The translations under genes and the position numbers were made by a program. 64,000 bases of DNA from Porphyromonas bennonis DSM 23058 = JCM 16335 (lineage in GTDB: Bacteria > Bacteroidota > Bacteroidia > Bacteroidales > Porphyromonadaceae). Position 1 is the first letter of the stretch; each line of letters begins with the position of its first letter. The DNA lies in NCBI RefSeq assembly GCF_000375645.1, contig NZ_AQWR01000004.1, positions 1 through 64,000 of the forward strand, written 5' to 3'. Below are positions 58,981 to 64,000 of the stretch, one piece after another. The notes below the pieces were generated by a model that was not told the DNA's origin, did not search any database, and was given only the letters and a program-made list of their open reading frames with translations.

Positions 58981-59406
58981 ATGGAGTGTAGAATCGGAAG
59001 AGTGACCGCCATCCGCCCGACAGAGGTGGAGGTAGAGGTACTACAGATGTCTGCCTGCTCATCGTGTCACGCACGGGGAGCCTGCACCGCATCGGATATG
59101 CGCATGCGGACGGTCACCATCACACGGGATCTCCCGGTGGGGCTCTCCGTGGGTGATCCTGTGCAGATAATCGCCGATGACCCCAAGGTCCTCCAGGCAT
59201 CTGCCTATGCCTACATCATCCCCCTAGTACTGATCATCCTTGAGGCGGTACTGCTCCCCAAGTACTTCGGCATCGGAGAGATGGCGCTGATCGGGATCAC
59301 ACTCGCGACTGTGGCGCTCTATGCCGTAGTCCTGTGGGCACTTAGGGATCACTTCAAGCGCGTCTTCACCTTCCGCATCCGTCCACTGAGAGAGACGCAC
59401 GACTGA
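58981..59406 (+). CDS. rseC: RseC/MucC-family positive regulator or Rnf-associated protein
   Basis: This 141-residue membrane protein has a conserved Cys cluster near the N terminus (C3, C26, C29, C35 in SACSSCHARGAC). Two membrane segments follow (about residues 73-92 and 99-118). RseC relatives act in SoxR reduction together with Rnf/Rsx complexes in E. coli. In Bacteroidota the gene often precedes rnfB, as here with a 45-bp gap. A redox or iron-sulfur role at the Rnf complex is inferred from this context. Confidence 0.88.
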   Translation: MECRIGRVTAIRPTEVEVEVLQMSACSSCHARGACTASDMRMRTVTITRDLPVGLSVGDPVQIIADDPKVLQASAYAYIIPLVLIILEAVLLPKYFGIGEMALIGITLATVALYAVVLWALRDHFKRVFTFRIRPLRETHD

Positions 59407-59451: not shown

Positions 59452-60333
59452 ATGATTTTCACTATTCTATTTCTAGCCCTGGCAGCAGCGATCATCGCCC
59501 TGCTGATCTATTGGGTAATGACATCCTTCAGAGTCGAGGAGGATCCTCGCATCGGGGAGGTGCAAGAGGCGCTCCCGGGCGCCAATTGTGGTAACTGTGG
59601 CTATCCCGGCTGCGCCTCCTTTGCCAAGGCCTGCGTGGAGCATGAGACCCTCGATGGTCTCTTCTGCACCGTCGGAGGAAATGCGGTGATGCAGGACGTC
59701 GCCGACATACTCGGTCGCACAGTCGAGGAGCAGGATCCACTCATCGCTGTCGTCCGCTGCAACGGCACCTGCGAAGCACGCCCCAGAGTCAATATCTTTG
59801 ACGGTGTCAAGAGCTGTGCCGTAGCTCACTCACTCTATGGTGGAGAGACGCTCTGCACCTACGGCTGTCTCGGATGTGGCGACTGCGTGAGCGTCTGCGA
59901 CTTCGATGCCATCCACATGAACCCCGCCACCGGTCTCCCGGAGGTGGATGAGGACAAGTGCACCTCCTGCGGTCAGTGCGTCAAGGCCTGCCCCCGCAAC
60001 ATCATCGAGCTGAGAAAGAAAGGAAAGAAAAATCGACGCATCTTCGTCTCCTGCGTCAATAAGGACAAGGGAGCGATCAATAAGAAGATCTGCGCCAACG
60101 CCTGCATCGGCTGTGGCAAGTGCTTCAAGGAGTGCAAGTTTGACGCCATCACGATCAGCGATAACCTCTCATACATCGACCACACCAAGTGCCGTCTCTG
60201 TCGCAAGTGCGTAGAGGTATGCCCCACGGGTGCGATCCATGAGGTTAATTTCCCCGTGCGTAAGCCCAAGGTGGAGAAGCCTGTCGAGGAGAAGGTGGTA
60301 GCCACCCCGGAGGAGACCCCTGCCGAGGCCTAA
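59452..60333 (+). CDS. rnfB: Rnf complex subunit B, iron-sulfur protein
   Basis: RnfB receives electrons from ferredoxin for the membrane-bound Rnf (ferredoxin:NAD+ oxidoreductase, Na+ or H+ pump). One N-terminal membrane anchor (residues 1-22) is followed by the 4Fe-4S domain NCGNCGYPGC. Several ferredoxin-type CxxCxxC motifs come after it: CLGCGDCVSVC, CTSCGQCVKACP, CIGCGKCFKEC and CRLCRKCVEVCP. A Pro/Glu/Lys tail ends the 293 residues. It belongs to a rseC-rnfB-C-D-G-E unit. Confidence 0.96.
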   Translation: MIFTILFLALAAAIIALLIYWVMTSFRVEEDPRIGEVQEALPGANCGNCGYPGCASFAKACVEHETLDGLFCTVGGNAVMQDVADILGRTVEEQDPLIAVVRCNGTCEARPRVNIFDGVKSCAVAHSLYGGETLCTYGCLGCGDCVSVCDFDAIHMNPATGLPEVDEDKCTSCGQCVKACPRNIIELRKKGKKNRRIFVSCVNKDKGAINKKICANACIGCGKCFKECKFDAITISDNLSYIDHTKCRLCRKCVEVCPTGAIHEVNFPVRKPKVEKPVEEKVVATPEETPAEA

Positions 60334-60380: not shown

Positions 60381-61715
60381 ATGTTCCTGAAGACATTTTC
60401 AAAGGGCGGCGTACACCCGGAGGAGAATAAGATCTCTCACGACTCCCCCATCCAGGTACAGCCTATCCCTAAGACCGTATCCATCCTGCTCGGTCAGCAC
60501 ATCGGCAAGCCCGCCTCTCCGGTGGTGAGCCGTGGCGACGAGGTCAAGGTGGGTACCCTGATTGCCCAGGCGGACGGCTTCGTCTCCGCCAATATCCACT
60601 CATCCGTCTCCGGTAAGGTCAAGAAGATCGAGACCATCCTCGACGCCTCAGGCTACCAGAAGCCCTGCATCACTATCCAGTGCGATGGCGAGGACACCTG
60701 GGAGGAGACCATCGACCGCACCCCTGAGATCGTCCGCGACATCAAGCTGTCGAGCGAGGAGATCATCCAGCGCATTGCTGAGTGCGGTATCGTCGGTATG
60801 GGTGGTGCCACCTTCCCCACAAATGTGAAGCTCATGCCGCCCAAGGACGCTACCCCCGAGTGCGTGATCATCAATGGCGCCGAGTGTGAGCCTTACCTCA
60901 CCGCCGACCACCGGACCCTGCTGGAACGGGGCGAGGAGGTGCTGATCGGACTGCAGATCCTGATGAAGTCTGTCGGCGTCACCAAGGGCTACGTGGCGAT
61001 AGAGAATAATAAGCGCGATGCGATCGAGAAGCTCACCCAGCTCGCCTCCACCATGCCCGGTATCGAGATCGTACCTATGAAGGTGAAGTACCCCCAGGGC
61101 GGCGAGAAGCAGCTGATCGACACGGTACTCAAGCGTCGCGTCGCTTCAGGTAAGCTCCCCGTCACCGAGGGTGCCATCGTACAGAATGTCGGTACTGCCC
61201 TCGCCGTCTACGAGGCGGTACAGAAGCATAAGCCTCTCGTGGAGCGCGTCGTGACCGTGACTGGTAAGGCTGTAAAGAATCCCTGCAACCTGCTTGTCCG
61301 CATCGGTACTCCTCTGAGCGAGCTCATCGAGACAGCCGGAGGTATGCCCCGCTCCACAGCCAAGCTGGTGAGCGGAGGTCCGATGATGGGTAAGGCGGTC
61401 TACTCCGATGAGATCCCTGTTGCTAAGGGGACCAGCGGCGTGCTGATGCTGCTCGAGGAGGACACCAAGCGTCGCCCGATGCGCAATTGCATCCGCTGCG
61501 CCAAGTGCGTCGGAGCCTGCCCCATGGGACTCAATCCCGCCTTCCTTATGCGCGACACCGCATATAAGGACTGGGAGGCTCTGGAGTCAAACCATGTCTA
61601 CGACTGTATCGAGTGCGGCAGCTGCAGCTTCATCTGCCCCGCCAATCGTCCCCTCCTCGACCATATCCGTATAGGCAAGGGGCGCGTCATGGCTATCCGT
61701 CGCGCACGTAAGTAA
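60381..61715 (+). CDS. rnfC: Rnf complex subunit C
   Basis: RnfC is the peripheral NADH-side subunit carrying FMN and two 4Fe-4S clusters. The Nqo1-like FMN domain contains GMGGATFPTNVKL (near residue 140). Clusters are bound by CIRCAKCVGACP and CIECGSCSFICP near the C terminus. Length 444 is normal and there is no long C-terminal repeat as in E. coli RsxC. It follows rnfB by 47 bp and precedes rnfD by 34 bp. Confidence 0.96.
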   Translation: MFLKTFSKGGVHPEENKISHDSPIQVQPIPKTVSILLGQHIGKPASPVVSRGDEVKVGTLIAQADGFVSANIHSSVSGKVKKIETILDASGYQKPCITIQCDGEDTWEETIDRTPEIVRDIKLSSEEIIQRIAECGIVGMGGATFPTNVKLMPPKDATPECVIINGAECEPYLTADHRTLLERGEEVLIGLQILMKSVGVTKGYVAIENNKRDAIEKLTQLASTMPGIEIVPMKVKYPQGGEKQLIDTVLKRRVASGKLPVTEGAIVQNVGTALAVYEAVQKHKPLVERVVTVTGKAVKNPCNLLVRIGTPLSELIETAGGMPRSTAKLVSGGPMMGKAVYSDEIPVAKGTSGVLMLLEEDTKRRPMRNCIRCAKCVGACPMGLNPAFLMRDTAYKDWEALESNHVYDCIECGSCSFICPANRPLLDHIRIGKGRVMAIRRARK

Positions 61716-61749: not shown

Positions 61750-62742
61750 ATGTCTGATACTACAGCTAAGTTACTCGTCTCTCCGTCGCCCCACGTCCAT
61801 ATTCACGACTCCATCGAGCGTAATATGTATGACGTGATCATCGCGCTGATCCCGGCGCTGATCGCCTCGGTCATCTTCTTCGGCTGGGCGCCTCTCGGTC
61901 TGACGGTGACGTCGATCGCCTCAGCAATGTTCTTCGAGTGGATCATTACTCGCTTCGTGATGGGGAAGAAGGAGCTCACCATCACCGACGGGTCCGCCAT
62001 CATCACCGGATTCCTCCTAGCGCTCAATGTCCCTGCTAATCTCCCGATCTGGATCCTCCTCATCGGAAACTTCGCAGCCATTGCTCTTGCCAAGATGCCA
62101 TTCGGTGGTCTGGGGAATAATATCTTCAACCCCGCTATCCTCGGCCGTGTCTTCCTGCTTGTCTCTTTCCCCAAGCAGATGACCATCTACCCGCCGGCAC
62201 ATCAGATCCTCGCCGCCGGCACTGATGCCACCACTGGAGCGACGCCGCTCGCAATTGCCAAGGGGGTACTCGCCGGCTCGCCCGACTACAGCCTTGATAT
62301 GCTCCCCTCTGCCACGGAGATGTTCCTCGGACAGCTCTCCGGATCCTTCGGAGAGGTGTCTGCCATCGCCCTACTGATCGGCTTTGTCTACCTCCTGCTC
62401 CGCAAGGTAATCACCTGGCACATTCCTGTCTCTATTCTCGGAACCGCCTTTGTCTTCTCCGGAATCATGTGGCTTATCGATCCGACGATGTATATGAGTC
62501 CGGTCCTCCAGCTGATGACCGGTGGTATGCTGATCGGAGCGATCTTTATGGCGACCGACTACGTCACCTCACCTATGAGTACCGGCGGTCAGATCCTCTA
62601 CGGAGTGATGATCGGACTGATCACGATGGTGATCCGCTTCTGGGGATCCTACCCCGAGGGTATGTCCTTTGCCATCCTCTTTATGAATGGCTTCACCCCG
62701 ATGATCAATCAGTACATCAAGCCTCGCTTATTCCGCAAGTGA
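61750..62742 (+). CDS. rnfD: Rnf complex subunit D
   Basis: This 330-residue integral membrane subunit has about nine membrane segments. The covalent FMN attachment site is the Thr in DATTGATPLAIAKG near residue 160. NIFNPAILGRVF and FMATDYVTSPMSTGGQILYG are conserved in RnfD/NqrB. With RnfG it carries electrons across the membrane in the ion-pumping complex. Confidence 0.95.
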   Translation: MSDTTAKLLVSPSPHVHIHDSIERNMYDVIIALIPALIASVIFFGWAPLGLTVTSIASAMFFEWIITRFVMGKKELTITDGSAIITGFLLALNVPANLPIWILLIGNFAAIALAKMPFGGLGNNIFNPAILGRVFLLVSFPKQMTIYPPAHQILAAGTDATTGATPLAIAKGVLAGSPDYSLDMLPSATEMFLGQLSGSFGEVSAIALLIGFVYLLLRKVITWHIPVSILGTAFVFSGIMWLIDPTMYMSPVLQLMTGGMLIGAIFMATDYVTSPMSTGGQILYGVMIGLITMVIRFWGSYPEGMSFAILFMNGFTPMINQYIKPRLFRK

Positions 62743-62764: not shown

Positions 62765-63883
62765 ATGAAGAAGCTATCATCCACCCTACCTCATATGCTG
62801 ATCTGCCTCGTGCTCGTATGCTCGGTGGCAGGAGGTCTCCTCGCTTTCATCAACAGCCAGACCTCAGAGGTGATCGCCCAGCAGATCATCAATACCACCC
62901 TCGACGGAATCAAGGCAGTTGCCCCGGAGTACGACAATGATCCGTACAAGGAGCAATTTAAGGTCGCCGTCGATGGCGACAGCCTCACCGTCTATCCTGC
63001 AACTAAGGCAGGTGAGACTATGGGCTATGCCGTCGAGTCGACGTCGCACAATGGATTTAGCGGCGACGTCCGTATCCTCGTAGGCATCGACACCGACAAT
63101 AACCTCATCGACTACACCGTCCTGGAGCAAAACGAGACCCCGGGACTGGGTGCTCACGTGACTCACTGGTTCCACAGTGAGGCTCACCCCACCAGCGATG
63201 TACGTGGCAAGTCCCTCACTGAGCCGCTCAAGGTGACCAAGGACAATGGCTCCATCGATGCCATCACCGCTGCCACCATCACCAGCCGTGCCTTCCTCGA
63301 TGCGGTAAATAAGGCGATGCGCGGTGTACAGACCATCGATGGGGTGCCTGGTCAGTCCGGTGAGACTACCAGTGAGACAGTCGGCACGACAGCCGAGCCG
63401 ACGAAGGTAGACAACGACCTGCTCCTGTCTCTCCTCCCTGAGCATGACAATGATCCCGTCGCCGAGCAGAGTGTCATCACCGATGCCACCGGCTACAATT
63501 ACACTGTATATCCCGCCACGCGGGGAGGCATCTGGCAGGGCGCGGCAATCACTGCTCCCACGGAGAGTGGGTACAATGGTCCCATGCTCTTTATCGCCGC
63601 ACTGGACGCAGGCAACCACCTCCTCGACTACGCTGTCCTCCAAGAGTCGGAGAGCGAACAGCTCGGAGGTCAGGTGGCACAGTGGTTTAGGGACAATGGT
63701 CACCCCACGTCCGACATCCGCGGTCGCTCACTCGAGACTCCGCTCAAGGTTACTCAGGACGGAGGAGACATCGATGCAATCAGTGGTGCGACGGTGACGA
63801 GCCGTGCATTCCTCGATGCTATTAGCCGCACAGCCGCCATCGCCACCCAGGCACGCACCGCTTACGAGAACGCTGAAAATTGA
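62765..63883 (+). CDS. rnfG: Rnf complex subunit G with duplicated FMN-binding domain
   Basis: RnfG normally has one membrane anchor and one periplasmic FMN_bind domain in about 200 residues. This one has 372. After the anchor (residues about 9-30), domain one ends with DAITAATITSRAF (candidate FMN Thr171). Domain two ends with DAISGATVTSRAF (S340-G-A-T343, canonical). The two share a matching run of HPTSDxRGxSLxxPLKVTxD before the site. Linker residues 190-215 are Thr/Glu-rich. The frame is intact and it is followed directly by rnfE. Confidence 0.93.
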   Translation: MKKLSSTLPHMLICLVLVCSVAGGLLAFINSQTSEVIAQQIINTTLDGIKAVAPEYDNDPYKEQFKVAVDGDSLTVYPATKAGETMGYAVESTSHNGFSGDVRILVGIDTDNNLIDYTVLEQNETPGLGAHVTHWFHSEAHPTSDVRGKSLTEPLKVTKDNGSIDAITAATITSRAFLDAVNKAMRGVQTIDGVPGQSGETTSETVGTTAEPTKVDNDLLLSLLPEHDNDPVAEQSVITDATGYNYTVYPATRGGIWQGAAITAPTESGYNGPMLFIAALDAGNHLLDYAVLQESESEQLGGQVAQWFRDNGHPTSDIRGRSLETPLKVTQDGGDIDAISGATVTSRAFLDAISRTAAIATQARTAYENAEN

Positions 63884-63890
63884 TTTCGAC

Positions 63891-64000
63891 ATGAATAAAG
63901 GTAAAGTATTCCTCAACGGATTCATCACAGAGAACCCTATCCTCGTCTCCCTACTCGGTATGTGTGCCACCCTTGGCACCTCCTCGAGTGCTGAGACTGG
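63891..64000 (+). CDS. rnfE: Rnf complex subunit E (partial, runs off window)
   Basis: The ATG at 63891, 7 bp after rnfG, opens a frame reading LNGFITENPILVSLLGMCATLG. This matches the N terminus of RnfE/NqrD membrane subunits (xxxNGxxxENPxxVxxLGxCxTL). Only 36 codons are inside the window. rnfA is expected next. Confidence 0.88.
   Translation, partial: MNKGKVFLNGFITENPILVSLLGMCATLGTSSSAET

Follow-up and report, generated by a model that had tools for sequence, protein, structure and literature searches.

Flavinylated Proteins Related to the Double RnfG

The Rnf complex has been described as a U-shaped electron route from ferredoxin to NAD that carries one flavin on RnfG. The preliminary description of this DNA took one covalent FMN per RnfG as the standard, which agrees with the solved complexes (PMC11889175, PMC12174285). 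From solved or modelled complexes, these reports propose that the soluble domain of RnfG swings back and forth between two sites, the iron-sulfur cluster of RnfA/E and the flavin of RnfD. Multi-flavinylated RnfGs, encoded in an RNF cluster and containing more than one FMN-binding domain, have been described by Meheust et al. (2021), who proposed a second electron path for them (PMC8238504); the same idea, that a second flavin would change the electron path, had been put forward for the protein studied here and thus has a published counterpart. The main text of that paper contains no mention of Bacteroid- or Porphyromonas.

Tandem FMN_bind domains are also found in SaFMN3 and CbFMN4, on which covalent FMN was shown, two multi-FMN proteins having been flavinylated when made with ApbE (PMC10339131). 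Unlike the RnfG described below, they have three and four domains, respectively, and are not Rnf subunits. Where proteins have more than two FMN-bind domains, a beads-on-a-string arrangement with few interdomain contacts is predicted in many cases (PMC11334425). The same study describes FMN_red proteins with an unstructured C-terminal extension containing one or two flavinylation-motif-like sequences, similar to the RnfG tails reported in the last section, but these proteins belong to another family and occur mainly in Firmicutes. NqrC of the Na+-NQR shares the FMN_bind fold, the flavinylated Thr and the ETPGLG stretch, which lines the isoalloxazine pocket (PMC4348036), but it has a single domain and its partner complex is NQR; the host genome analyzed here encodes a separate nqrC. 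Finally, the minimal ApbE substrate is the heptad D-x-x-[ST]-G-A-[ST] (PMC12052999).

The Double rnfG Gene and Its Operon

The window, i.e., the whole stretch of 64,000 nucleotides analyzed, contains an rnfG gene of 372 codons (62765–63883; all features given here are on the + strand). A profile search of the genome showed that this single stop-free frame spans two FMN_bind domains. The 372-aa protein scores 215.3 bits against the rnfG profile TIGR01947 (cut-off 102) and matches PF04205 (FMN_bind) in two stretches, with 111 bits for the whole protein (cut-off 22), and in the genome search with FMN_bind both domain 1 (E-value 9.2e-19) and domain 2 (E-value 6.3e-12) are above the cut-off. The two tandem FMN-binding domains noted earlier are therefore borne out, and the protein departs from the standard RnfG with its one FMN domain. 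Its halves share 64 identities over 145 aligned residues; their local alignment score is 348, against a mean of 31 (sd 5.3, maximum 64) in 1000 shuffles. Porphyromonas sp. HMSC065F10 (G005; NZ_KV793784.1, L034) carries an equal double rnfG with 94% identity. Because a second genome has it too, we consider the double gene real and not an assembly error.

The gene belongs to an intact rnfBCDGEA operon, with rnfD before it and rnfE after it. It is preceded by rnfB (59452–60333; TIGR01944, 115.7 bits, cut-off 68.7), rnfC (60381–61715; TIGR01945, 551.8 bits, cut-off 245.95) and rnfD (61750–62742; TIGR01946, 363.6 bits, cut-off 207), the latter with its own heptad DATTGAT. The start of rnfE (63891–64000; TIGR01948, 250.2 bits, cut-off 213.4, L035) follows, the gene continuing beyond the window end, and rnfA (TIGR01943, 262.7 bits, cut-off 229.3, L035) comes after rnfE, outside the window. 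The host genome (2.02 Mb, 99.86% complete) has three FMN_bind matches, namely both RnfG domains and NqrC on another contig, and one ApbE gene. Upstream of rnfB (58981–59406) a 141-aa protein is encoded with a Cys-rich N-terminus and two hydrophobic stretches. We take this protein to resemble RseC.

The double RnfG starts with a presumed membrane anchor, a hydrophobic stretch at about residues 8–30 (62786–62854) recognized by eye; a low-confidence model has a helix at residues 8–52. The soluble part of domain 1 (residues 45–190, 62897–63334; the boundaries are ours) contains the first PF04205 stretch at residues 97–185. It is followed by a Thr/Ser/Glu-rich linker (residues 191–214, 63335–63406), which is 4 residues shorter in HMSC065F10. 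Domain 2 (residues 215–372, 63407–63880) has no anchor of its own. Its PF04205 stretch is at 63569–63829, it scores 47 bits against this profile in the genome search (cut-off 22), and it is 42–44% identical to domain 1 of the same protein. The window protein is thus an RnfG that has several FMN-binding domains and is encoded inside an RNF cluster, and each domain has a site for ApbE: DAITAAT, the family norm, in domain 1 and DAISGAT in domain 2. It belongs to the already published multi-flavinylated RnfG kind (PMC8238504), from which it differs in the altered pocket of its second domain. With the single-domain Bacteroidales RnfGs (TIGR01947) it shares the place in the operon, the presumed anchor, ETPGLG and, in domain 1, the motif D-x-[IL]-[ST]-A-[AST]-T; these proteins do not have the second FMN_bind domain after a linker.

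Domain 1 Corresponds to the Ordinary RnfG

The preliminary description placed the motif ends TAATITS and SGATVTS at residues 168–174 and 340–346, respectively, which is correct. It also called the first site non-canonical, since the comparison was made with the textbook SGAT. This does not hold for the family: at the fifth motif position, 131 out of 133 distinct RnfG frames, mostly from one order (Bacteroidales) and including close relatives, have Ala as in DAITAAT (residues 165–171, 63257–63277, predicted acceptor T171). The remaining two have Gly (G291, L059) and an unreadable position in a cut frame (L105). In another ApbE substrate, a Gly-to-Ala change reduces flavinylation to about 50% but does not abolish it (PMC12052999). 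Domain 1 furthermore has the pocket stretch ETPGLG (residues 124–129, 63134–63151), and E-[TS]-P-G-L-G is present in 43/43 aligned single RnfGs. We therefore found no support for the suggestion that the first site may lack flavin, as domain 1 keeps this stretch and Ala is usual at the motif. In a tree of separate domains, domain 1 groups with the single RnfGs. Judged by sequence, domain 1 matches what is usual for RnfG in the order and domain 2 is the divergent one, which reverses the roles originally given to the two sites.

The exceptional RnfG on L059 (G291) has the motif DQFTGAT, in which it differs from all other RnfGs that were read in the order, and lies on a 5.8-kb contig; it is possibly foreign DNA in that assembly. 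Its long frame was rejected as a double, being an RnfG of another type.

Domain 2 Has an Altered Pocket and an Intact ApbE Heptad

At the position of ETPGLG, domain 2 has ESEQLG (residues 296–301, 63650–63667), in which Glu, Ser (for Thr), Leu and Gly are kept and Pro and Gly are lost. Residue 331 is Gln, compared to Lys in 41 and Gln in 2 of the 43 single RnfGs. The replacement of Pro by Glu beside the flavin could shift the flavin potential. The canonical ApbE heptad DAISGAT (residues 337–343, 63773–63793), with T343 as predicted acceptor, is complete in the second domains of both the window and HMSC065F10. More generally, 9 out of 14 second domains (2 + 5 + 2), belonging to three of the four double lineages, have Gly where the first domains have Ala; the fourth lineage has Ser or Ala at this position.

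Nei-Gojobori counts for a single genome pair, the window genome and G005, gave 5 nonsynonymous and 33 synonymous changes in domain 2 (dN/dS 0.039), 7 and 30 in domain 1 (0.062), and 10 and 5 in the linker (0.58). These counts indicate that domain 2 is under purifying selection about as tight as that on domain 1. That domain 2 is held while the linker drifts and changes length is the pattern expected of a tethered working domain. The two domains of the double RnfG are separated by a dS of 1.56. In the sister genus of Porphyromonadaceae, dN/dS is 0.11–0.35 for second domains and 0.01–0.09 for first domains, and more of the pocket stretch has been lost there than in domain 2 of the window. One of these second domains (L007, G013) has DATSGPT where its relatives have DAVSGST, with a dN/dS of 0.35 relative to G026; it evolves faster, as if losing its flavin site.

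AlphaFold2 gave no usable model for the whole double RnfG with a two-sequence alignment (mean pLDDT 39). Domain 2 alone, with a shallow alignment of four rows, reached a pLDDT of 57 and a pTM of 0.59, and the first four PDB matches of this model are RnfG chains, with a best E-value of 0.033 that is not significant.

Distribution and Origin of Second Domains

The preliminary description would have been refuted by a double form that is universal and already described in this family. The kind is indeed described, as mentioned above, but it is not universal: double RnfGs are encoded in 2 out of the 12 genomes that represent the window's genus and in 5 out of 24 sister-genus genomes whose RnfG exceeds the cut-off, the latter count leaving out G035 (match below the cut-off) and G061 (searched with FMN_bind alone). 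The search of the order covered 295 genomes, 241 of them over the cut-off, with doubles counted among the matches listed; among these matches, G075 and G279, both of one family, are further doubles. In one genus of another family, RnfG is present in 22 of 23 genomes, and 5 of the 22 are double by profile. Two more doubles of this same genus (the genus of G498), G507 and G513, were recognized by reading, the second domain of G513 ending with the sequence stretch before its motif. When one RnfG was taken from each of 65 families (first-of-family genomes with coordinates at hand, in which weakly matching RnfGs are under-represented), a single double was found. The search of the phylum returned matches with an E-value of 1e-27 or better in 14 out of 168 genomes, and no double frame among these matches except the window's own gene. 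The long frames of G072, G343 and G418 were rejected as doubles, all being extended upstream.

When the domains were placed in trees separately, first domains clustered with single RnfGs from the group to which they belong. For G075 and G279, the second domains join their own first domains (support 93/90, and 100/94 in a second tree), and those of G498, G500, G503, G507 and G508 are placed inside their own genus (99/96). Topology tests, which are weakened by the fact that the tested groups were named after the sequences had been seen, rejected the hypothesis that the second domains all arose once (p-AU 0.016 for three lineages, 0.0043 for four). They also rejected the clades combining the second domains of the window pair with those of G075/G279 (p 0.0043), those of the window pair with the G498 group (p 0.0054) and those of G075/G279 with the G498 group (p 0.028). 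The separate-domain trees and the rejected clades therefore favor at least three origins of second domains in the order, perhaps four.

The best trees place domain 2 of the window with the second domains of the sister genus, on long branches (94/86; 82/91), and common ancestry of second domains across both Porphyromonadaceae genera was not rejected. Neither was a clade of both domains of the window's pair (p 0.20 and 0.31). Domain 2 is closest to its own domain 1 (42%, next 39%), and the two share HP[ST]SD[VI]RG[KR]SL, which was not seen in the other alignment rows. These likenesses favor an origin of domain 2 by duplication of domain 1 within the gene, whereas the best trees would point to the sister genus.

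Possible Function of the Second Domain

The reading we prefer, to which as a whole we give just under an even chance, is that domain 1 acts as the shuttle and domain 2 as a tethered second covalent flavin that stores or relays electrons. The soluble domain of RnfG would have been duplicated in tandem in an ancestor of the window genome and Porphyromonas sp. HMSC065F10. Domain 1 would have kept the anchor and the normal pocket and would still carry electrons between the iron-sulfur cluster of RnfA/E and the flavin of RnfD. Domain 2, tethered by a flexible linker about 24 residues long, would obtain a covalent flavin at T343 from the single ApbE of the cell, receive electrons from domain 1, and either store them or exchange them with a periplasmic partner in either direction, thereby forming a putative side exit. 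Domain 2 probably does not take over the swing from domain 1, because it has no anchor of its own and its linker is variable.

The loss of Pro and Gly from the pocket, Gln in place of Lys and, in the sister genus, the larger pocket losses, the higher dN/dS and the DATSGPT of one second domain count against this reading, and no partner for a side exit was found. Both ESEQLG in place of ETPGLG and the larger pocket losses in the sister genus speak for a domain 2 that is free of flavin and has a docking or stabilizing role. This role nevertheless seems unlikely to us, as the heptad is complete in the two second domains of the window pair and the pocket stretch still has its Glu, Leu and second Gly, with Ser replacing Thr. 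A flavinylated domain 2 without any outlet, which merely holds one or two electrons while Rnf turns over, would account for the intact heptad and the selection on domain 2. It would also suit the genes downstream of rnfG, among which no gene for a side-exit partner was seen by eye, rnfE and rnfA being followed by genes that seem unrelated to redox partners. Separate partners need not be encoded in the operon, however, and we regard the restriction to storage as a distinctly minor possibility.

Two further explanations are very improbable. The loss of flavin from domain 1, raised as a possibility in the preliminary description, with domain 2 as the working site could draw on the textbook SGAT being in domain 2 and not in domain 1, but Ala variants such as DAITAAT are the rule in single RnfGs of the order, and both the complete pocket stretch and the presumed anchor belong to domain 1. 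A passive recent duplicate without function would suit the sporadic occurrence of the double form, but is hardly compatible with copies that have diverged this far (64/145 identical, dS 1.56) and with a domain 2 nearly unchanged between two species.

Close relatives have the single form, so that the window gene provides a natural pair for testing.

ApbE Heptads in the Tails of Single-Domain RnfGs

Perfect ApbE heptads were also found outside the FMN_bind domains. Out of 64 single-domain RnfGs, one per family (61 parsed rows plus G073, G107 and G121 obtained with a wider rule), 10 have such heptads, 14 in total, in a short polar C-terminal tail, compared to 0.05 expected from shuffled tails (61 rows). 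The true heptad word ranks first among 1260 permuted words, and in 7 out of the 10 rows the heptad starts 18–20 residues after the domain's own motif. The ten RnfGs are those of L086 (G066), L088 (G097), L093 (G124), L097 (G067), L099 (G141), L101 (G059), L127 (G115), L138 (G142), L032 (G040) and L058 (G149). In a larger set of 82 single-domain rows, chosen partly for long frames and containing relatives that are not independent, 16 rows have 26 heptads (0.15 expected).

In one genus (L058/L066, G149; L077, G248; L070, G497; L074, G496; L076, G516; L081, G514), the RnfG tails contain one to five heptads in series, two species having five each. The first tail heptad, W-D-x-S-S-G-A-[ST], is common to six species of this genus. 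In G149, the contig breaks off within the RnfG tail.

A term search of PMC8238504 and PMC11334425 (main texts) gave no mention of heptad tails on RnfG, and there was none among the results listed by our literature searches, with supplements and most subscription journals outside their scope. The tail heptads are probably more novel than the double RnfG, and with them the known kinds of ApbE site would come to include the tail of an Rnf subunit. Tentatively, and with the balance leaning against so broad a claim, we propose that lineages of Bacteroidales have attached extra covalent flavins to the C-terminus of RnfG again and again, either as a second FMN_bind domain, as in the window, or as bare tail heptads, with up to five per protein in one genus. 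Either addition would change Rnf from a closed U-shaped electron loop to a branched complex that gives or takes electrons in the periplasm. If the added flavins are real, some Bacteroidales may tap the Rnf pump from outside.

The genus with heptads in series also includes RnfGs with another type of tail. In L068 (G501), L069 (G502), L071 (G512) and L075 (G505) the tail is rich in Cys and His (CGGC...EC..GPHG.C..NCKH) and perhaps binds metal.
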